From: Caldifarciminota bacterium 4484_100
Lineage (GTDB): Bacteria; Hydrothermota; Tepidihabitantia; SM23-42
Length of the DNA stretch: 19,210 nucleotides
NCBI GenBank assembly: GCA_002049785.1
Contig: MUKB01000035.1
Coordinates: forward strand, 1 to 19,210
Direction: 5' to 3'
Positions 4,942-19,210 of the stretch are shown piece by piece. How positions within the stretch are numbered: position 1 is the stretch's first letter; the number at the start of each line of letters is the position of its first letter. The notes under the pieces were generated by a model. The model saw only the letters and a list, made by a program, of their open reading frames with translations. It searched no databases and was not told where the DNA came from. Both the position numbers and the translations under genes were made by a program.

Positions 4942-6598
4942 ATGAAAAAGACCAAAACGATGAAGGATTATGTCTACAAACCGATCTCAGCCCCACGCGG
5001 AACAGAAATTACCTGTAAAGGGTGGCAACAAGAAGCTGCCCTGAGAATGCTTCAAAATAATTTAGACCCTGATGTTGCGGAAAGACCTGAGGAGCTGATT
5101 GTCTATGGAGGCAGTGGTAGGGCTGCAAGAAACTGGGAATGCTATCGTGCAATCGTAAAATCGCTAAGGGAACTTGAGAACGACGAAACCCTGCTGATTC
5201 AGTCAGGTAAGCCGGTCGGGGTCTTCAAAACATTTGAATATGCACCCAGGGTCTTGATTGCCAATTCATTGTTGGTTCCTGCCTGGGCAAACTGGGATTA
5301 CTTCAGAAAACTTGAGGCATTAGGATTGATAATGTATGGCCAGATGACTGCGGGCTCCTGGATTTACATCGGAACCCAGGGTATTATCCAGGGAACCTAT
5401 GAAACCCTTGCTGTCTGTGCCAAGAAACACTTTGGCGGAACCCTGAAAGGCAAATGGGTTCTGACCGGTGGAATGGGTGCGATGAGTGGTGCCCAGCCCC
5501 TTGCGGTAACAATGAATGAAGGTGTGCTCCTTGATATTGAGGTCGATCCTGCCCGCATCAAGAGACGCATTGACCAGGGTTTCTGTGATATAATGGTCGA
5601 TGACCTTGACCAGGCCTTAAAACTTGTATTCGATGCAGTAAAACAGAAAAAGCCGCTCTCCGTAGGTCTGGTGGGAAACACCTCGGATATCGAACCTGAA
5701 CTTGTGCGCCGGGGAATAATCCCAGATGTTCTTACTGACCAGACATCTGCCCACGATGAACTGAACGGCTATGTGCCCGGAGGTATGAGCTTAGAACAAG
5801 CCCTTCACCTGCGTAGCACAAACCCTGAAGAATATAAAAAACGGGCATTAGAATCGATTGCCCGGCAGATGGAGGCGATGCTTGAAATGCAGAAGAGAGG
5901 TGCAGTTGCATTTGATTACGGCAATAATATTCGGGGTCAGGCAAAACGTGCCGGGGTTGAAAATCCATTCGTGATACCGGGATTTGTTCCAGAATATATC
6001 AGGCCACTCTTCTGCGAGGGTAAAGGTCCTTTCAGATGGGCTGCCCTTTCCGGAGATAAAGAAGATATCTATAAAACTGATAAAGAGGTCTTAAAGATGT
6101 TCGGTGATGACCCGGCAATCCGAAGATGGATTGAGCTTGCCCAGAAAAAGATACCATTTCAGGGTCTACCCGCAAGGATTATGTGGCTCGGCTATGGAGA
6201 AAGGGATAAGCTGGGTTTGAAGTGAATTGAAGGCACCGGTAGTTATCGGCCGGGACCACCTTGATACCGGTTCGGTTGCCTCACCATATCGTGAAACCGA
6301 AGGGATGCTTGATGGGTCTGATGCCATTGCTGACTGGCCCATCCTGAATGGTCTGCTCAATACCGCTTCAGGCGCCTCCTGGATATCAATCCATCATGGT
6401 GGTGGCGTAGGTATCGGTTATTCAATCCATGCGGGCCAGGTCCTTGTCTGCGACGGAACCGAGGATATGGACTCAAGGATTGAACGGGTTCTGACCAATG
6501 ACCCGGGAATCGGTATTGCCCGACACTACGATGCCGGATATCAGAAGGCGATTGAAATAGCCCGGAAAAAGGGTATCAAGATTCCGATGGAAAAATAA
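4942..6598 (+). pseudogene. hutU: Urocanate hydratase (urocanase), frame-broken
   Basis: Urocanase converts urocanate to imidazolonepropionate in histidine breakdown, using tightly bound NAD+. Residues 1-427 (4942-6225) match the family closely: [54 protein letters not shown] and [11 protein letters not shown]. The frame ends at TGA 6223-6225. The remaining 123 residues, starting [15 protein letters not shown], continue in another frame to 6598. Compared with the family as I recall it, about eight residues (near NEMVRSG) are missing at the joint, a net loss of about 23 nt, so this is not a simple one-base slip. Restored length would be near the normal 557. Residue 414 is Met in LPARIMW, where the P. 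putida enzyme has its catalytic Cys410 (from memory). AAGGAGG precedes the ATG. No hutH, hutI or formimidoyltransferase gene is in the window. The family is certain; whether it is active is doubtful. Confidence 0.85.
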
Positions 6599-7742: not shown

Positions 7743-8327
7743 ATGCCTGAAATGGATAATGAAGTTCGAAACCAGATCATCGAGGCGGGAGTTAGGATTT
7801 TTGCCCGGTATGGATATCGCAAGACTACAATGGATGATATTGCAAAGGCGACCAACAAGGCAAAGAGCTCACTCTACCATTATTTTTCCAGTAAAGAGGA
7901 TATCTTCAAGGCAGTCGTGGAAAAAGAAGGCAATATCCTGACATCAGCGGTTCTGAACGCCATCGCTAAGGAAGAACTACCCACTGATAAACTCCGGGCC
8001 TATGTCAAAACGAGAATGAAGGCACTGAATCGGCTGGCAAATATCTATAATGCATTTCAGGACGAATACTTAGAAAACTACAAATTCATCCAGAACCTGA
8101 GAAGTCAATATGATAACTTTGAGATTGAAACGATAAAGAAAATATTGAAGCAGGGCATTGACCAGGGCATATTTGAAATCGATGACCTCGATCTCACCGC
8201 ATTCACCATTGTGGTCGGAATGAAAGGGCTTGAATACTACTGGGCTACGGAGAAAGATATCAGGCGACTCAATCGGAATATTGATACCCTGTTCGACCTG
8301 CTGTTCAATGGTATGCAAAAGAGATAA
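7743..8327 (+). CDS. TetR/AcrR-family transcriptional regulator
   Basis: The protein has 194 residues, a normal TetR size. Residues 8-55 form the family helix-turn-helix: NQIIEAGVRIFARYGYRKTT, then MDDIAKATNKAKSSLYHYF and SSKEDIF. The C-terminal ligand-binding half is helical, with a hydrophobic segment near the end. A perfect Shine-Dalgarno (AAGGAGG) lies six bases before the ATG. It is the first gene of a run leading into an RND exporter, a LolA-like protein and an outer-membrane protein. It therefore probably represses this set and responds to a hydrophobic ligand handled by it. Ligand and operator are inferred, not shown. Confidence 0.88.
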   Translation: MPEMDNEVRNQIIEAGVRIFARYGYRKTTMDDIAKATNKAKSSLYHYFSSKEDIFKAVVEKEGNILTSAVLNAIAKEELPTDKLRAYVKTRMKALNRLANIYNAFQDEYLENYKFIQNLRSQYDNFEIETIKKILKQGIDQGIFEIDDLDLTAFTIVVGMKGLEYYWATEKDIRRLNRNIDTLFDLLFNGMQKR

Positions 8328-8337
8328 AAAATTTTTT

Positions 8338-10568
8338 ATGGCAATTCGAACAAAAAACCCAAATAGTCAATTAGTCCACAAATCAATACTCTCCGGAGCC
8401 GCACGATTTGTGCTCAAGGTCCACAAATTGATTGTCATTGGAACCATAGTCATCACGCTGTTTCTCGGGTATTCTCTCAAAAATCTCAAAATCAACCCCG
8501 ATATTATGTCCTATATGCCTGAAGACGACCCTCTGGTAAAAAATTTCGATTATGTTGGCGACCTTTTCGGTGGTAATATGATGGCAATGATTGTACTTGA
8601 AGCCGATGATATATTCAATCACCAGACCCTCAAACAGATTGCCGAACTGACTGAAAAAATTCAAGGCCTGGATGGAGTGCAATCGGTCACAAGTCTGACC
8701 AATATTCTGAATATCGAGGCCAGTGATGAAGGCCTTGAGATTGGCCCGCTCATCGACCCGGACAATCTACCTGAAACCGCTCAGGAGCTCGCCGCCCTCA
8801 AACAATACACCCTTTCCCGGGATATGTATCAAGGGAATATAATCTCCCGTGATGGTAAAGAGACGATAATTATCTGTCGATTAAATCGCAATGGAAACCA
8901 GATTGAGATCGCCCGTAATCTAAAAAAGGTGGTTCAGCAACTCAATATGAGAGAGAATGTCTATTATGGTGGTCAACCGTTTCTACTTTTGGGTATCAGC
9001 GATATGATAATCCATGACCTGAAGTTTCTAATTCCCCTGGTGTTTCTATTTATTCTCATTACCCTGGGTATCGGATTCCAGAACATTCCAGGAGTCATTC
9101 TACCGCTTCTCTCGGTTTCACTCAGCACCATCTGGACATTGGGGATAATGGCTATGTTAAAAGTCCCCATCACAATCATCTCAGACATCATCCCGGTTGT
9201 CCTCTTTGCAGTCGGCAGTGCCTACAGCATCCATGTAGTCACCCATTTTCAAGAACTAAAATATTCAAAAGATAGGTTGAAAGGTGCAGTTACAGCACTC
9301 ACCAATGTCGGTATTCCGGTAATACTCGCAGGTGCAACAACCATTCTCGGTTTTATCTCATTCATCTTCGGTTCATATCTCACCGCAATCAAACAGTTTG
9401 GAATCTTCTGTAGTTTAGGGATTCTCTTCTCATTGATTATCTCGCTGACCTTCATCCCGGCATTAATCTACTGGTCCAATCCCAGGGGTTTAAAAAAGAA
9501 AAAAAGTTTCGGCTTAAAAACAGGACGACTGATATTGAAGGAACACAGATTAATTACAGTCGCAGGTCTGCTGGTTATGATGACTGCAGGGCTCGGTATT
9601 CCGGAGATTGAGAGGAAGGTTGATATCCTCAACTATTTCCGGCCAGAAACCGATTTTAGACGCACTGAAATGGTAATTCAGGAAAAATTCGGAGGTTCAA
9701 CTCCGATTCAGATTCTGGTGAAAGGCGAAATTGAAGCCCCCAGCACCCTGATTAGAATGAAAAAGATAGAGACCTTTCTCGATTCATTCCCTGATATCCA
9801 CAATACCCAGTCTGTAGCCGACCTCATTGAATGGATGAATGAAGTGATGGGTGAGGGCAGAAGAATTCCTCAAGACCGGGCAAAGGTGTCCAACCTCTTC
9901 TTATAAATAGTGACAAATCCGAGGCCCTGATTCAAGCCACCCTGACCAGTGGGCTCAGGACCCAGCGGGTTCATCAGGTCGTCCTGGCAATCAATAAATA
10001 TCTGGCGAATATGAACACCCCCTCCATCAATTTCTACCTGACCGGTATGCCTCCAATCCATTGTAAACTCGACCAGAGTATCAAGGTCAGTCTGCTTCAA
10101 AGCCTGCTGCTCGCAATAATTGCGGTATTTATCATTCTCATCTTGATGATGCACAACCCATTTTATGGATTGGTTGGACTTCTACCCATCGCCTTTTCCC
10201 TGACCGCGATATTCGGATTTATGGGTTATACAAAAATACCCCTTGATATCGCCACCGTGCTTGTCGGTAGCATATCGATTGGTATCGGCGTCGACTACTC
10301 AATCCATCTGCTCAACCGCTTCTCCCGGGAAAGGAAAAGAGGCCTGAATACTAAAGAGGCAATGGCCCGGGCCCTTGATACAACAGGCAATGCAATTTTC
10401 ATAAACGACTTCACCGTAATTCTCGGATTTCTGGCATTGACATTTGCCCAGTTAATACCACTACAAAATTTTGGCATCCTGGTGGCAATCACAATGCTCG
10501 GTGCCGGACTCGGCGCCCTATTAATACTGCCATCAGTAATTATTTTAATCAAGAAAAGGAGACAATAA
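8338..10568 (+). CDS. MMPL/RND-superfamily exporter (HAE3-like), one frameshift near 9901
   Basis: This large inner-membrane exporter of the COG1033 type moves hydrophobic or lipid substrates using the proton gradient. The restored protein has about 743 residues. TM1 is at about 30-48, followed by a periplasmic domain, a five- to six-helix bundle containing GSAYSIHVVTH, TM7 and a second periplasmic domain. The C-terminal bundle holds the hallmark GVDYSIHLLNRF. The first frame ends at TAA 9904-9906. The second frame continues LINSDKSEALIQATL without loss of family sequence, so a single missing base around 9901 explains the break. The ATG at 8338 is ten bases after the tetR stop and has no clear Shine-Dalgarno. 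The end overlaps the next gene as TAATG. The break could be a sequencing error, a real mutation or, less likely, recoding. Confidence 0.85.
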
Positions 10569-11311
10569 TGCAAAAAAAATTAATAACAATAATCATCGGT
10601 TCCATTATTCTTCTATCCGGTTTTGCATCCGCGCAGAAACCGAACGCCCGGGAGATTATGGACCGGGTAGATATGGTAATCAATGGACCGAAGGATCAGA
10701 AGCTCATTATGGAATTGAAATTAATCGACAAGAATGGTGATGAAAGAGTGCGTGAAATTGTGATGTATCAGAAAGGAAGCAATAAGAGATTAAGCAAATT
10801 TCTGTCTCCGGCCGACCAGAAAGGTATCGGATTCCTCTCCCTGCCCGGTGGCAAAATGTATCTATATCTTCCTGCCTTTCAAAAAATCAGGCGCATTGCA
10901 GGGCACATAAAAAATAACCGATTTGCTGGAACCGATATGACCTACGAAGATATGGAGGCGATAAACTACAATGAAAAATGGCTGCCTGAACTGAATGGAG
11001 AAGATGAAGAGCACTACATACTACAATTGAAACCAAAAGAAAATGTCTCAACTGCATATAAATCCATGAAAATCTGGGTTCTGAAGGACAAATTTTTTCC
11101 CACGCGCATTGAATACTACAATAAGACTGGAAAATTAATCAAAATCTTAACCCGCGAAGAAATTGAAAAGGTTGATGGTTACTGGGTCGCTCGAAAATCT
11201 ACGATGGAAAACTTAAAGTCCGGGCATAAAACCCTAATAATTCTAAAGCAGGTAAAATTCGATTCCGGACTTTCTGATGATATCTTCACCAAAAGATATC
11301 TACGAAGATAA
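10568..11311 (+). CDS. LolA-like periplasmic protein (outer-membrane lipoprotein-sorting family)
   Basis: The 247-residue protein has a clear signal peptide, residues 1-22, ending SGFASA-Q. The mature part starts with AREIMDRVDMV and continues in the half-barrel pattern of LolA-like proteins (COG2834 type). It includes REIVMYQKGSNKRLSKFLSPADQKG and GGKMYLYLPAFQKIRRI, then FAGTDMTYEDM, a motif often seen in members paired with MMPL exporters. Such proteins bind lipid or other hydrophobic cargo in the periplasm. AAGGAG precedes the ATG, which overlaps the exporter stop as TAATG, so the two are translationally coupled. It probably shuttles the exporter's cargo to or from the outer membrane; true LolA function is less likely in this context. 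Confidence 0.85.
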   Translation: MQKKLITIIIGSIILLSGFASAQKPNAREIMDRVDMVINGPKDQKLIMELKLIDKNGDERVREIVMYQKGSNKRLSKFLSPADQKGIGFLSLPGGKMYLYLPAFQKIRRIAGHIKNNRFAGTDMTYEDMEAINYNEKWLPELNGEDEEHYILQLKPKENVSTAYKSMKIWVLKDKFFPTRIEYYNKTGKLIKILTREEIEKVDGYWVARKSTMENLKSGHKTLIILKQVKFDSGLSDDIFTKRYLRR

Positions 11312-13946: not shown

Positions 13947-15719
13947 CTACTCTATACTTCCATCAATATGCTTCTTGAGCATCTCAATAATATCTCTATC
14001 CACAGAATATCCTAAATCCTTCAACACCTGAAGGTCGCGGAGTGCATCCTTATATCGCTCCAGATAGTAATAAGCAACCGCGCGGTTATAAAGGGCCTGG
14101 CGATTATTCGGTGCTCTCCCCAACACCCGATTGTAGTCTTCAATCGCCAGCTCATATGAACCCTTTCGGCCGTAGGCATTTCCACGATTGATATAGGCAT
14201 CAAAATAATCCGGCCTTATTCCAATCACCCGTGAATAGTCATCAATGGCACTATCATACTCACCTATCTTCATATAAAGGTTACCGCGGTTATAGTATGC
14301 ATCGACAAAGTTCGAATCGAGCATCACCGCATCAGAAAAATCATTATAGGCAAGTCCATATCTGCCCAGCGCACGATAAGCAATCCCTCGATTATTATAT
14401 GAGCCTACAAAATCGGGATTTATGTTGATCGCACGGGTGAAATCATCGATCGCTTCGATGTATCTTTCCCTTTCGAGATAGCCCAGCCCCCGCTGATTAT
14501 AGGCATGCGGCGATTTCGGAAAATTTTTCAACACCTCACTCCACAGTGTAATACTGTCTTTCCAGATACCACAGCGATGATATGTTCGGATTGAAAAATA
14601 GCCCGCAACGGCAATAAAACCCATAAGGGTAATTACCCTTATGCTGACCAGTCTATTTCGCAACAATTGGTATAAAAGATATGCAGCAATAAAGAGAATC
14701 CCGATTGAGGGAATATAGGTATAACGGTTTGCCGCAATCTCGGGTCCTGCCACCGGAATCAACTGTGTTACGGGCAGGATTGTAATTGCGAAAAATAGTC
14801 CGCCAAAGGCAATCTTATTTGTATACCTCCTTGAATAGACGACCGCCCAGATGAGCAGAACAAGAATAATCGGAGTGATGAAAAAAGGGGGTGGTAGTCT
14901 ATTGGTGATACCTGTAGGAAACGGGTAGAAGGCATAGAGCTGAACCGGAAAGATAATTTTATATATATAAAAAATAAAGACATAGATGGCAATGAGGATA
15001 TTCTTCAAGAATGGAAATGTATGACCCCTTAAAGTCTGCTGGGCGATTATCGCCATAATTCCCGAGACTACGGCAATTACAAAAAATGGGACCTTCTCCA
15101 GAAACAATCTTTTATCAAATCGCCTCCCCCTGAACCAATCAACAAGCAGAAGAATAAAGGGCAAGGTCATCGCCATCCCCTTGGCAAGAAATGAAAAGAT
15201 AAATAATATCAGTGAAAGATAATAGTAAGAGATTTTTCTCCTCTGCAGATAATATAAGTAAGAAAGGAGTGAACCGAGGAAAAAGAGGGCATAGAGCACA
15301 TCCTTACGCTCGGTTACCCAGGCGACCGATTCCACCCTCAGCGGATGGATTCCAAATAAGACAGCGGTAATAAAAGAAACTGTAATATTCCTGGTTAAGA
15401 CAAAAATTATTAGAAAGACAATAAGACAATTCAGAAGATGGAGTATGAGGTTAGTGAAATGATAAATGTATGGCTCAGACTTGAAGAATTGGTATTCTAC
15501 AGAGAAACTGAGGATTGTAAAAGGGATATATGTTCCGGCATAATACGAAGTAAAGACCTTCTTCAATTGTGGCCAGGAAATCTGCCTTATGTCAGGGTTC
15601 TTGACCACAAGAATATCATCATCCCAATTTACAAAATTATTTTTTAAGGAAGGAAGAAATGATAAGCAAGTAATCAAGAGAACTATGATTATTGCACCAA
15701 TAAAAAACCGCCGTTCCAT
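13947..15719 (-). CDS. TMTC-like multi-pass membrane protein with C-terminal TPR repeats
   Basis: The 590-residue protein has about eleven hydrophobic segments in residues 1-390, then about five and a half TPR units (roughly 400-575) of the form AYNQRGLGYLERERYIEAID. The N-terminal NWDDDILVVKNP (acidic residues 33-35) and HPLRVESVAWVTERKDVLYA are hallmarks of the bacterial relatives of TMTC GT-C glycosyltransferases, where the acidic pair in the first extracytoplasmic loop is thought to be catalytic. It therefore probably transfers a sugar from a lipid carrier to a protein, outside the cytoplasmic membrane; this is inferred from family. Its ATG directly abuts the stop of the upstream membrane-protein gene (TAGATG) with no strong Shine-Dalgarno, so it is the last gene of the radical SAM operon. 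Confidence 0.75.
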   Translation of the reverse strand: MERRFFIGAIIIVLLITCLSFLPSLKNNFVNWDDDILVVKNPDIRQISWPQLKKVFTSYYAGTYIPFTILSFSVEYQFFKSEPYIYHFTNLILHLLNCLIVFLIIFVLTRNITVSFITAVLFGIHPLRVESVAWVTERKDVLYALFFLGSLLSYLYYLQRRKISYYYLSLILFIFSFLAKGMAMTLPFILLLVDWFRGRRFDKRLFLEKVPFFVIAVVSGIMAIIAQQTLRGHTFPFLKNILIAIYVFIFYIYKIIFPVQLYAFYPFPTGITNRLPPPFFITPIILVLLIWAVVYSRRYTNKIAFGGLFFAITILPVTQLIPVAGPEIAANRYTYIPSIGILFIAAYLLYQLLRNRLVSIRVITLMGFIAVAGYFSIRTYHRCGIWKDSITLWSEVLKNFPKSPHAYNQRGLGYLERERYIEAIDDFTRAININPDFVGSYNNRGIAYRALGRYGLAYNDFSDAVMLDSNFVDAYYNRGNLYMKIGEYDSAIDDYSRVIGIRPDYFDAYINRGNAYGRKGSYELAIEDYNRVLGRAPNNRQALYNRAVAYYYLERYKDALRDLQVLKDLGYSVDRDIIEMLKKHIDGSIE

Positions 15720-16631
15720 CTATTTAGACTGCTCAAGGACAGACCGACAGAGTCTGATGCCTTGAGCAAGAATATAATCCTGGACGGCCTCATTCGTGTA
15801 GTATCCTGTCCTCTTTGTGGTATGTTGTCTAATCACAACCACATCTACTTCACCCCCACCCTTCTTTTCAATCACCAATTTTTTAATCGAGGGTGCCTTA
15901 AATTTCTTCAAGAGGCCAAATTCCGGCTGTGCTATCATCACCACATAAAAATAGGGATATTTTCTTGCGCCGACCGTATTGAGTGATATCTGCCCTTGTA
16001 ATCCAATGAATTCCTTAGGTGCATCGAGAAATTTTATCAATATCCGGGCATCCTGAGGGAACGAACCATCCTTGTGGATACCTATTTCAAGAAAAGGGAT
16101 TGCCTTTAATGAGGGGGCTCTCAATATCGGCGATTCCATCATCCTCTTAACAATCCGGGCCTTGATATCCAGACCGACCGGCATCCAGGCCCGACGCTGG
16201 CCCGTGAATATCAATCCACTGAAGAGAATAAAGGCGTTAAAAAATGTTGCAATGAGGGGAAAAGGTATTGCCAGTAATGTTAATAAGGGGAAACCGAATG
16301 TGAGTAAAAAAAAGATAAATATTATATATGTTATTATCGCGCCAATACCAAAAGTGGTAAACTTTTTTATTCGCTGGCACTGGTCGATAACCTGCTCGAT
16401 CTTTGCTGGTGTTACCTCACGCCATTCCGATTTCTGGGCCGTAACCCGTTTTATCCTGATACCCTTCATAAGGTTGAGAACAAGACAACCAACAATAAAT
16501 GGAATACCGACAAGTATATTCTTAGAATCGAGTTGTAAAAAGAAGGCGGTGGCAATCAAAAGCGCCGAGAGTAACCCTCTCAGTTGAGGTGAGATTCTAT
16601 CGAATATGAGATAGACGCGAGGCTCTTCCAT
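15720..16631 (-). CDS. Unrecognised four-helix membrane protein with a soluble C-terminal domain
   Basis: I do not recognise this family. From the ATG at 16631 the protein has 303 residues. Four hydrophobic segments occur in two pairs, at about 18-34 and 38-54, then about 92-112 and 115-143, separated by a charged stretch. A basic segment and a soluble domain of about 150 residues follow, rich in beta-type sequence (FLEIGIHKDGSFPQDARIL, EVDVVVIRQHT) and ending in a helix. The frame is open to 16733, but the ATG at 16631 has a GAGGA Shine-Dalgarno six bases upstream and avoids a long overlap. It still overlaps the radical SAM gene by 35 bp and abuts the TPR gene. Tight coupling suggests it acts with the radical SAM enzyme and the Cys-tailed protein, possibly as a membrane partner, but no function can be assigned. 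Confidence 0.65.
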   Translation of the reverse strand: MEEPRVYLIFDRISPQLRGLLSALLIATAFFLQLDSKNILVGIPFIVGCLVLNLMKGIRIKRVTAQKSEWREVTPAKIEQVIDQCQRIKKFTTFGIGAIITYIIFIFFLLTFGFPLLTLLAIPFPLIATFFNAFILFSGLIFTGQRRAWMPVGLDIKARIVKRMMESPILRAPSLKAIPFLEIGIHKDGSFPQDARILIKFLDAPKEFIGLQGQISLNTVGARKYPYFYVVMIAQPEFGLLKKFKAPSIKKLVIEKKGGGEVDVVVIRQHTTKRTGYYTNEAVQDYILAQGIRLCRSVLEQSK

Positions 16632-17916
16632 CCAATTCCTCAAGGTTATGAACCTTCCAGTATAAAGGACAGGCTCCCTTACAGATATCAAAATAAGAAC
16701 ATTGATGACACCGCGCAGGTGCATAATCAGCACGCTTGAAATAACTGAGCATTGGTGAATTCCAGATACTTTGAAAACTCTTTTTAAGAAGGTTGCCTAC
16801 GGGCATACGCCAGGATGAACAGGGGATGATATTACCAACCGGGTCGATACTCAAAAGCCCGGTGATTGCGGCACAGGATTTATTTCCAAAGCCGTATGCA
16901 ATAGGATTGAATTTACAGATGGGCACCGGTGAATACCAGAGAAATTGTATCCCTCGAGACTCGGCCCGCTCCTTCACCTCAAGGACATATCCACCAATTT
17001 CATCATAGGATACCCATAACTTTCTATCTTTATTCGCTGCACCACAGGGAATCAAGAGATTCATCGAAAATCTCTTCAAACCTAACTCTTCTACGAGACC
17101 AACAATATTTATCAGGTCCAAAAGATTTCCTCTCGATACTGTAGTGTTCGTATGGACAGAAATACCGGCCTGCATCAGTAATCTTATTCCGTTGACTGTA
17201 GCATCAAATGAACCGGGAACACCGGTAAGCCCATCGTGCACACCAGCATTGGAACCTTCAATACTCATCTGAGCACTGCGCAGACCCGACCCCTTTAAAC
17301 TCTCCACAAGTCCCTCATTCAAAAGGGTTCCATTGGTGATGAGGTTTGTCCACATTCCAATCCCAGCGGCATAATCAATGAGTTCGGCAATATCATCTCT
17401 TAAAAGAGGCTCGCCCCCGGTAAAACTTACCGATGGTACCTGTGCTTCATTGAATATTTTAAAGATAACCTTCTTTACATCATTTGTATTCATTTCGCGA
17501 TAGTCCCTATCTCCCACATAACAGAATCTGCATTTCAGATTACAGCGGTAGGTGACCGCGATTTCAGAAAGGACAGGATACTCATTGGGCGCGCCAGAAA
17601 ATTCATAATATGATACCGCCTCACGCCGGTCTGTCTCACGCAGACATCCACATACAACCGCCCTTAAATCGCAGAAGAAATAGTGAAGTTCTAAACGGCG
17701 TTCATCACTATCCCCGACCGTATCAAGTAGTTGACGGATAGAACCACCCTTCAATAGATATTGGAGTATACTCACACCACTCTGATTCAATCTGTAGACC
17801 TGATTCGGCACGAGGATTAACAATCGATCTCGCTCGCGGACATAGACAAACGGCTTAATCTCCTGAATAAAGCGATCAACCCAATCCAGGTTATAGACCC
17901 TTTGATTTCCGATCAA
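16597..17916 (-). CDS. Radical SAM/SPASM enzyme with N-terminal PqqD-like peptide-recognition domain
   Basis: This 439-residue enzyme is of the type that matures ribosomally made peptides. Residues 1 to about 95 look like a PqqD-like RRE domain: FVYVRERDRLLILVPNQVYR, LNQSGVSILQYLLKGG. The SAM cluster motif C125-x3-C129-x2-C132 (CNLKCRFC) follows, with GGEP at 167-170. The C-terminal SPASM region has seven cysteines (334, 348, 366, 403, 406, 412, 416), enough for two auxiliary iron-sulfur clusters. The pattern is that of sactisynthase and other SPASM peptide-modifying enzymes, some of which form thioether or C-C crosslinks. The start is TTG at 17916, overlapping the upstream stop (TTGA), with no strong Shine-Dalgarno, so translation is likely coupled to the Cys-tailed protein. 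That protein is the obvious substrate candidate. The reaction is not predictable from sequence. Confidence 0.85.
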   Translation of the reverse strand: MIGNQRVYNLDWVDRFIQEIKPFVYVRERDRLLILVPNQVYRLNQSGVSILQYLLKGGSIRQLLDTVGDSDERRLELHYFFCDLRAVVCGCLRETDRREAVSYYEFSGAPNEYPVLSEIAVTYRCNLKCRFCYVGDRDYREMNTNDVKKVIFKIFNEAQVPSVSFTGGEPLLRDDIAELIDYAAGIGMWTNLITNGTLLNEGLVESLKGSGLRSAQMSIEGSNAGVHDGLTGVPGSFDATVNGIRLLMQAGISVHTNTTVSRGNLLDLINIVGLVEELGLKRFSMNLLIPCGAANKDRKLWVSYDEIGGYVLEVKERAESRGIQFLWYSPVPICKFNPIAYGFGNKSCAAITGLLSIDPVGNIIPCSSWRMPVGNLLKKSFQSIWNSPMLSYFKRADYAPARCHQCSYFDICKGACPLYWKVHNLEELDGRASRLSHIR

Positions 17917-19210
17917 TGTGCACCACCACTTACGCAGGCTGAATGACAGGCGGAATGGCAGGCGGAGTGACAGGCAGAATGGCAGGCGGAGTGACAGGCG
18001 GAATGGCAGGCATCATGACACGCGGTATGAACATAGCAGGCGGAATGGCAGGCGTCAGAATGGATAAATGCCGAATAATTTTTTATTGGTGCAGTATAAA
18101 CAACAAAGCCCTGCTCTAAATCTCGATAATAATGTAGTCGTGAAAATCGGTATCCACGCAGATAATCATAGTAATCTGGATTTCTATACTCTTCGTCGAT
18201 ATACCTTTCAGGTGAAGGTGAACCTATCTTTTCTGTGTAGTATGCTTTGGTTGATTCGAGGTCACAATCCCAGGCCTTGGCAGAAATCTTCTGGACTATC
18301 ATAGTAATCAGTGACTTCAGCCTTTCCTGGTCAAGCGAACTATCCGGTTTCACCGCATCACAGAATGCCTGCTCATAGTATCTTAGACTACCTGGTCGAG
18401 AAAGTATCTTTATCTTCAGGGGTGGCCCCTTGATGATTTCAATCACACCCTGTTCGGCCAGTTTATTCGTCAGAATGGTCAAAACCTTGTTCACTGGATA
18501 GTCGAGAAAAAGCGCTGCCTCCACAAGGTCCAGCTTCGCAACCTTGCCCGATTTCCTGAAACTTGAGACCTCAATCCGGGGTGGAACCCAATCATCCCTG
18601 AGCCATCTCAGACTTGCCACATCACTGTATGCACCTTTCAGTCTGCGCGCTTTACGATTGGAATAGAATAGGTAGGGCACTAAGCAGATAATCATATAGA
18701 CCAGATCGACCGGGAATGTCCGACGTGGTCTCGTTCTTGGTTTTATTCTCAGCTTACCAAACTTTGCCGTCTCAAAATACCGCGCCGGAACATACTGCTG
18801 AATCATCACCTTCTCTCTTGTTCCCACACCCTCTTTATGGACTCGCACCGTAAACCAGTATCTTCCCTGATATTCCTGTCCAAAATATGAGAGGAGATAT
18901 TTTTCATTCATAAACCGTTCTGTACGGAAACCGTAATCATTCGGGTTAACCTCTCTTCCTTTCACTACAATCGGATAATAGACATAAACCGTATAGTGCT
19001 CTAACGGTTCATCCCACTGCACCGGAGACCAGTGTAGCACCACAAGTTCGCCAAATTCACTCTTGGTCAATGCCAGATTTCCGGTTTGGCCAACTTATTA
19101 CCCAGGTCCTTAATCTTCAGATGGTAGCGGACACCCGATTGGTCCAAGGCATAGGAACCTTCATAATCAAAATAGGGTTCCATATCCAGACCCTGGAGAT
19201 AGAAGCCATG
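17913..19210 (-). CDS. DUF2207-like membrane protein with C-terminal His-Ser-Ala-Cys repeat tail (5'-partial, one frameshift)
   Basis: The gene enters from the right edge. A first frame reads HGFYLQGLDMEPYFDYEG...LAKPEIWH and stops at TGA 19069-19067. The second frame, open from 19094, continues FGELVVLHWSPVQWDEP. In DUF2207-like proteins these parts would be continuous, so one base is probably missing around 19070-19095. Counting residues from 19070: an extracytoplasmic beta-rich part, one membrane segment at about 119-137 followed by RKARR, then a cytoplasmic-looking region with a winged-helix-like stretch (about 178-212). The tail (337-379) has ten Cys, mostly as HSAC units, and ends VSGGAH. 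The positive flank after the membrane segment puts the tail in the cytoplasm, where the radical SAM enzyme could reach it. The stop overlaps that enzyme's start. The DUF2207 call is from remembered pattern; the tail is directly visible. Confidence 0.7.
17934..18062 (-). repeat. 12-bp tandem repeat encoding the HSAC tail
   Basis: The stretch encodes HSDAC, HSAC, YVHTAC, HDAC and then six uninterrupted HSAC units, 43 residues with ten Cys. At the DNA level the unit is 12 bp and the copies differ at synonymous positions. Cys codons alternate TGT and TGC and Ser codons vary (TCC, TCT, TCA), hinting at a 24-bp higher-order unit. The degenerate copies lie at the N-terminal side, the uniform ones toward the C-terminus. 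Confidence 0.9.

Follow-up and report, generated by a model that had tools for sequence, protein, structure and literature searches.

The radical S-adenosylmethionine (SAM)–SPASM enzymes SkfB, CteB and SuiB, of the sactipeptide, ranthipeptide and streptide classes, each act on a short free precursor. Other SPASM enzymes take short-period repeats as substrates, in the His-Xaa-Ser (HxsA/HxsBCD), ACGX and CXXX systems, and QhpD modifies a functional protein in place, making Cys–Asp/Glu links in the folded, secreted small subunit of quinohemoprotein amine dehydrogenase. Here we describe a locus in a 19,210-nucleotide stretch of Caldifarciminota bacterium 4484_100 (contig MUKB01000035.1; hereafter the window), in which the gene for a DUF2207-like membrane protein with a repetitive His-x-Ala-Cys (HxAC) tail (gene A, the scaffold) overlaps that for a radical SAM–SPASM enzyme (gene B). 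With SkfB, CteB and SuiB, gene B has in common an N-terminal domain resembling the recognition element (RRE) of ribosomally synthesized and post-translationally modified peptides (RiPPs), a CX3CX2C core, SPASM cysteines and the overall fold, whereas the proposed substrate is the C-terminal tail of a large membrane protein. The locus likewise joins a short-period repeat to a SPASM enzyme, as do the repeat systems, and would resemble QhpD in modifying a protein in place, here at a repetitive tail on a membrane protein.

Judged from sequence comparison, the tail of gene A is most likely the substrate of gene B. The system is new on the substrate side and known on the enzyme side, because the enzyme is of the RRE–SPASM class and its partner is a large membrane protein, not the short, free, cleaved precursor of strict RiPPs (precursors of fewer than 90 residues were not searched for). 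The open-licence literature (subscription journals, and a newer Pfam entry listed on some homologues, were not covered) yielded no HxAC tail, no such scaffold with a radical SAM enzyme and no (Cys-Ala)n, or (CA)n, tail, in agreement with the first-pass annotation of the window, which knew of no described HSAC-tail system on this scaffold. In TvgA/TvgB a radical SAM enzyme acts on TVGG repeat units with a loss of 2 Da (PMC9062424); that substrate is a short precursor peptide, and its motif and chemistry differ from those of the HxAC tail.

The DUF2207 family is widespread and without known biochemical function. Its members, for example SMU.243 of Streptococcus mutans, have an N-terminal domain outside, a C-terminal part inside and a low-complexity end, commonly a glycine- and serine-rich stretch (PMC10457818), which in gene A is replaced by the HxAC tail with a dedicated enzyme. 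The system gives a handle on these unexplained low-complexity tails.

The tailed scaffold and its enzyme

Genes A and B comprise the following features, all on the minus strand.

17913..19070, minus strand: gene A, DUF2207-like membrane protein (scaffold), with a partial outside domain, one hydrophobic stretch, a cytoplasmic domain and a C-terminal tail
17934..18062, minus strand: C-terminal Cys/His tail of gene A, with ten cysteines and nine H-x-A-C units
17916-17933, minus strand: last residues of gene A, V-S-G-G-A-H, after the Cys/His tail
19067..19210, minus strand: N-terminal piece of gene A in another frame, located by tblastn of eight homologues and reaching the contig end
16597..17916, minus strand: gene B, RRE–radical SAM–SPASM enzyme of 439 amino acids, with a TTG start
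17653..17883, minus strand: RRE-like (PqqD-like) N-terminal domain of gene B, model residues 11-87, from profile matches and the model

Gene A ends in ...HSDACHSACYVHTACHDACHSACHSACHSACHSACHSACHSACVSGGAH, in which the ten cysteines and nine H-x-A-C units are interrupted by two irregular places, HSDAC at the start and YVHTAC. The tail thus has the ten cysteines and HSAC-like period of four recognized in the first pass, as well as the overlap reported there with the radical SAM gene, the TGA stop of gene A overlapping the TTG start of gene B. The DNA pattern for three H-x-A-C units has six matches on the minus strand and none in 200 dinucleotide shuffles. The tail would lie in the cytoplasm, because a single hydrophobic stretch follows the outside domain and is succeeded by basic residues, and because this is the described DUF2207 topology (PMC10457818).

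The window copy of gene A is not intact: it lacks about 25 codons that its homologues have, and near 19070-19095, at the end of the contig, its reading frame shifts. An assembly error is the likely cause, because two further genes of the same contig are also split: a urocanase lies in two open reading frames (ORFs; 4942-6225 and 6227-6598, plus strand), with a likely frameshift in the contig at 6225/6227, and an MMPL-type transporter, flanked by a TetR regulator (7743-8327) and a LolA-like protein (10568-11311), is apparently divided between 8230-9906 and 10011-10568 (plus strand). The source genome is an incomplete assembly of 1.33 Mb, 53% complete.

The first-pass assignment of gene A to DUF2207 stands through its homologues only; the window protein itself, from this broken copy, has no Pfam match. 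One of ten homologues passes the cut-off for PF09972 (P0166, 31 bits against 24.4), four match below it and five do not match, and precomputed PF09972 annotations are present on 5 of 99 homologues, including P0141, which is 68% identical to the window protein. Most scaffolds are 500-750 residues long, and their cytoplasmic domain carries, ahead of the tail, a K-x-W-D-x-D-x-x-x-T motif strongly conserved in 26 scaffolds with tails of both types (types I and II, below), which is a candidate docking site for the enzyme.

Gene B belongs to the RRE–SPASM class of radical SAM enzymes. Pfam detects radical SAM (PF04055) in all 70 family members analysed, SPASM (PF13186) in 69 and PqqD (PF05402), at an E value of 0.01 or better, in 22 (best 6e-11). 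The CX3CX2C cysteines are invariant across the 70 aligned enzymes, as are C333, C347, C365, C402, C405, C411 and C415 (six SPASM-region cysteines plus one more); the canonical last SPASM cysteine, near the C terminus, is absent from the window enzyme. The predicted structure of gene B (predicted local distance difference test, pLDDT, 91.6) starts with a helix followed by three strands and three helices, the β-β-β-α-α-α topology of RRE domains, and its best structural matches are the peptide maturases SkfB, SuiB and the sactipeptide enzyme 5wgg/5why, which we take to be CteB. The PqqD-like or RRE domain named in the first pass is borne out by these profile, topology and structural matches. By sequence, the best match in the PDB is SkfB, followed by PqqE; as regards a thioether product like that of sactipeptide and ranthipeptide maturases, there is the fold match with SkfB and 5wgg/5why only. 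Among the best 25 of 91 matches to NCBIfam models none reaches its cut-off; the HxsC4 and ACGX models, which belong to another repeat and another scaffold, match at 94 bits against cut-offs of 500 and 400.

Tails and enzymes across genomes

A scan for the tail pattern over one genome per species gave at least 115 stretches, and the figures that rest on it apply among the 115 matches listed. Stretches were taken as tails if they had at least three units, with a mostly small or acidic second residue, at most 45 residues from the stop. This rule separated 93 tails from 16 look-alikes (HRAC, HLAC, HPAC and so on), which lie in ORFs of a different kind, and from six stretches without a suitable ORF in the fetched sequence; in two of these six (L049 and L061) the end of the stretch truncates a genuine tail. 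The 90 accepted loci are the 93 minus three judged afterwards to be chance (Kuenenia L033, Pseudomonas mucoides L054 and Burkholderiales L116). By record titles they span more than 20 phylum-level groups of bacteria and some archaea, among them Thorarchaeota, Heimdallarchaeota and Thermoproteota, and take in Asgard archaea; the system is also present in at least one strain held by a culture collection, Desulfobulbus alkaliphilus DSM 24258 (L041). Homologues of gene B that carry a name are mostly from candidate division WOR-3 or a plain ‘bacterium’.

The number of H-x-A-C units per tail varies from 2 to 11. The 754 units at the 90 loci are encoded by 149 distinct 12-mers, with serine codons of both the TCN and AGY kinds; because units vary in synonymous bases, selection maintains the protein repeat, which is more than the outcome of a recent DNA expansion. 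Among the 911 cysteines at these loci, 832 are preceded by alanine, 756 have histidine at −3 and 789 have serine or aspartate at −2, counts that are partly circular because the loci were picked by pattern. In homologues from the whole-protein search the corresponding figures for 753 cysteines are 656, 589 and 610. The search with gene A gave 99 homologues, 86 of which have at least three cysteines at a period of four in the last 90 residues, and the remaining 13 look mostly truncated or off-target.

A matching enzyme is present at 90 of the 90 accepted loci (90 of 93 if the three set-aside stretches are counted), within the fetched stretch at 80 and elsewhere in the genome at ten. The 80 in-stretch enzymes comprise 74 matches of 353-805 bits and 6 partial ones of 47-227 bits, five of which are cut by an end; 78 lie on the same strand as the tail and two, both in Thorarchaeota, on the opposite strand. 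Whole-genome searches of the other ten tail genomes returned one enzyme each (343-502 bits), further matches among those listed reaching at most 136 bits. The enzyme is absent, even at an E value of 1e-30, from the 19 control genomes (16 with look-alikes and the three set aside). One Myxococcales genome has two tail genes (L006 and L012, both among the 90 loci), with one enzyme found, so a single enzyme may act on both tails.

Co-occurrence was also determined in whole phyla. Among 147 genomes of Hydrothermota, the phylum of the window, the enzyme of the HxAC branch (counted at 381 bits or more) is present in 25, a repeated tail in 24 and both in 24 (Fisher p 1e-26, relatedness ignored). The odd enzyme-only genome, G082, has an enzyme fragment at a contig edge, and three more genomes show one isolated match to a two-unit pattern. 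In two single-contig genomes of this phylum the tail gene lies 0.56 and 0.64 Mb from the pair formed by gene B and gene C, a third membrane protein described below; because the pairing survives this separation, linkage alone cannot explain it. The scaffold family, searched without its tail, occurs in 29 of the 147 genomes, all of which have an enzyme of one of two branches; 23 of the tails are HxAC and six are (CA)n, one of the latter cut by a contig end, and no scaffold lacking either tail was found among the 147 genomes. In 251 Chloroflexota genomes, the three with at least six HxAC tail matches are the same three that have an enzyme of 550 bits or more.

The type of tail is paired with the clade of the enzyme. 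An 83-enzyme tree, with five enzymes of the (CA)n branch as its root, groups the enzymes of type I tails in a single clade of 59 leaves (58 with a label, and L049 assigned from its tail) and those of type II tails in another of 19 leaves (18 plus L061; support 0.82).

The (CA)n branch constitutes a sister system that the first-pass annotation did not include. More distant enzymes, at 207-290 bits, occur in six of the Hydrothermota genomes. In the five that were read the scaffold ends in CACACACAGCACACAGGGR, following a Gly/Ser-rich stretch, and in the sixth, G014, the scaffold contig ends within a CACACAC tail and the enzyme stands at the start of another contig. In Chloroflexota, 15 of 15 enzyme matches of 277-322 bits adjoin a (CA)n tail, recognized by pattern for 13 and by reading for the other 2, two further matches are weaker (172-173 bits), and one genome carries both systems, each enzyme adjoining its own tail. 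Most (CA)n tails that were read come after a Gly/Ser-rich stretch; examples of a SPASM enzyme with a homologous scaffold ending in (Cys-Ala)n are L163 (1878-3545) and L196 (3121-6750). Profile comparison shows the (CA)n scaffolds and both types of HxAC scaffold, I and II, to be homologous (probability 99.4-100%); two archaeal scaffolds (P0215 and P0220), in which HSAC/HSNC units occur together with CACACACAGGGW, resemble types I and II partially and (CA)n scaffolds not at all. The closest relatives of the HxAC enzymes thus adjoin homologous membrane proteins with a (CA)n tail, not free precursor peptides.

The first-pass annotation had read the tail as the substrate and had named, as observations that would speak against this, tails routinely lacking a radical SAM gene and closest enzyme relatives paired with a free precursor. 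Neither was found, given the pairing at all 90 accepted loci, in 24 of 24 tail genomes of the phylum and in the sister branch, and the reading is supported.

Proposed maturation and its alternatives

The locus is quite probably a dedicated protein-maturation cassette, in which the tail of gene A is a permanently attached substrate modified by gene B. Gene A would place its N-terminal domain outside and its C-terminal domain, with 2 to 11 H-x-A-C units, in the cytoplasm, where gene B would bind it and modify the tail unit by unit, probably at the cysteines; repetition along the units is suggested because their number varies. A 5′-deoxyadenosyl radical would drive formation of a bond from each cysteine sulfur to a carbon of a nearby residue. 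SkfB and CteB act on cysteine, which makes such a thioether the first candidate, and by this analogy one per cysteine, with a loss of 2 Da per unit, has about an even chance of being the tail chemistry. The modified tail would stay on the membrane protein as a working part, and the sister branch would do likewise to (CA)n tails on the homologous scaffold. Possibly, though this is speculative, the histidines and cysteines of the modified tail form a rigid surface suited to metal or redox chemistry. Tentative too, and somewhat unlikely in its full extent, is a post-translational system spanning bacteria and archaea, whose SPASM enzymes would crosslink His/Cys or Ala/Cys strands many times over at the cytoplasmic terminus of a membrane protein, giving a tethered metal or redox strand, with DUF2207 as the common carrier for several evolved tails (HxAC, CA and mixed Asgard archaeal). 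If the cassette is as proposed, SPASM chemistry reaches beyond small peptides to a lasting component of a membrane protein.

Several observations weigh against this reading. No product has been seen, and the joint occurrence of tail and enzyme does not by itself prove the tail to be the substrate. The thioether is proposed by analogy, and SuiB, an equally good fold match that does not act on cysteine, makes another bond, between two carbons. The structural matches reach template modelling (TM) scores of only 0.53-0.67 with root-mean-square deviations of 7-15, the PqqD/RRE match of the window enzyme alone is below threshold (E value 0.03-0.04), and the type I clade is poorly supported (0.59). 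Three stretches that satisfied the first tail rule have no enzyme, and their exclusion as chance came afterwards. A further 16 Chloroflexota genomes, none with an enzyme of the HxAC branch, have one to three two-unit matches, which were judged by their letters, unread, to be chance. A scaffold is missing from two of 31 enzyme genomes, G082 (enzyme at a contig edge) and G079 (contig ends inside the tail). In G086, one of the genomes with unlinked genes, the match to the enzyme begins only at model position 176, and the RRE part of this enzyme may therefore be broken.

An unmodified tail could instead bind a metal or cluster and serve the enzyme as a donor of electrons or iron–sulfur, an improbable alternative although a Cys/His-rich tail does accompany an iron–sulfur enzyme at all 90 loci. 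The enzyme has a substrate-binding domain of the RRE type and peptide maturases as its best fold matches, and each enzyme clade has its own tail, (CA)n or HxAC, which fits substrate specificity better than a donor role. Moreover, the near-strict alanine before cysteine (832 of 911) has no obvious metal-binding role and, being common to the (CA)n tails, suggests a chemical or steric need beyond metal binding. It is more improbable still that the enzyme acts on something else, either gene C or a small peptide, with the tail a bystander in a conserved operon. Gene C does follow the enzyme in 49 of 66 loci with room for it (47 by rule, L010 and L095 by reading) and stays with the enzyme where the tail gene lies elsewhere. 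Yet the 17 loci with room and without gene C are all of type II, and all 17 keep tail and enzyme; no type II locus with room has gene C. Unlinked tails and enzymes are still kept in the same genome, and no tail-less scaffold was found in the 147 genomes, with small free precursors (fewer than 90 residues) not searched for. A repeat due to chance or to low-complexity DNA that merely lies next to a radical SAM gene, of which the 16 look-alikes among the 115 matches are a reminder, is already refuted by the absence of matches in 200 shuffles, by synonymous variation, by the spread over more than 20 phylum-level groups and by the lack of the enzyme in the 16 look-alike genomes.

Gene C and other neighbours

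Behind the enzyme the window contains two further membrane proteins, the first of which, like the sister system, goes beyond the first-pass annotation.

15720..16733, minus strand: gene C, conserved membrane protein with a C-terminal soluble α/β domain, identified by a family hidden Markov model (HMM)
13947..15719, minus strand: membrane protein with C-terminal tetratricopeptide (TPR) repeats, behind gene C, an ORF

The family HMM of gene C, built without the window copy, gives 247 bits on that copy, and the family has a V-x-R-Q...G-Y-H-T motif. The predicted structure (pLDDT 87) consists of helices and a C-terminal α/β domain, for which the nearest folds in a structure search were below a meaningful level; the true start may lie further in, because the first 35 residues of the ORF are unstructured in the model. 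Gene C stands between genes A and B in L007 and directly behind gene A in L006 and L088. It may serve the type I branch as an accessory, conceivably one that helps by binding the tail. In 14 type II loci (for example, L074, 1598-2824) a common coiled-coil-like neighbour takes its place.

Among neighbour families common to at least five loci, clustered from proteins of at least 90 residues, there was no protease or exporter; an ABC-type ATPase is found near four loci, at scattered distances. The TPR membrane protein is not among the families common to the wider set of loci, and in L159, L173 and L174 the gene behind gene C has a C terminus like that of the TPR protein of the window. Directly upstream of gene A in some loci (L159, 4809-5216; L060, 3185-3598) is gene D, of about 130 amino acids and no family; like the scaffold and gene C, it gave no match in the NCBIfam search. 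Gene D was seen in WOR-3, an Aminicenantes, Thorarchaeota and, overlapping, an Armatimonadota locus.

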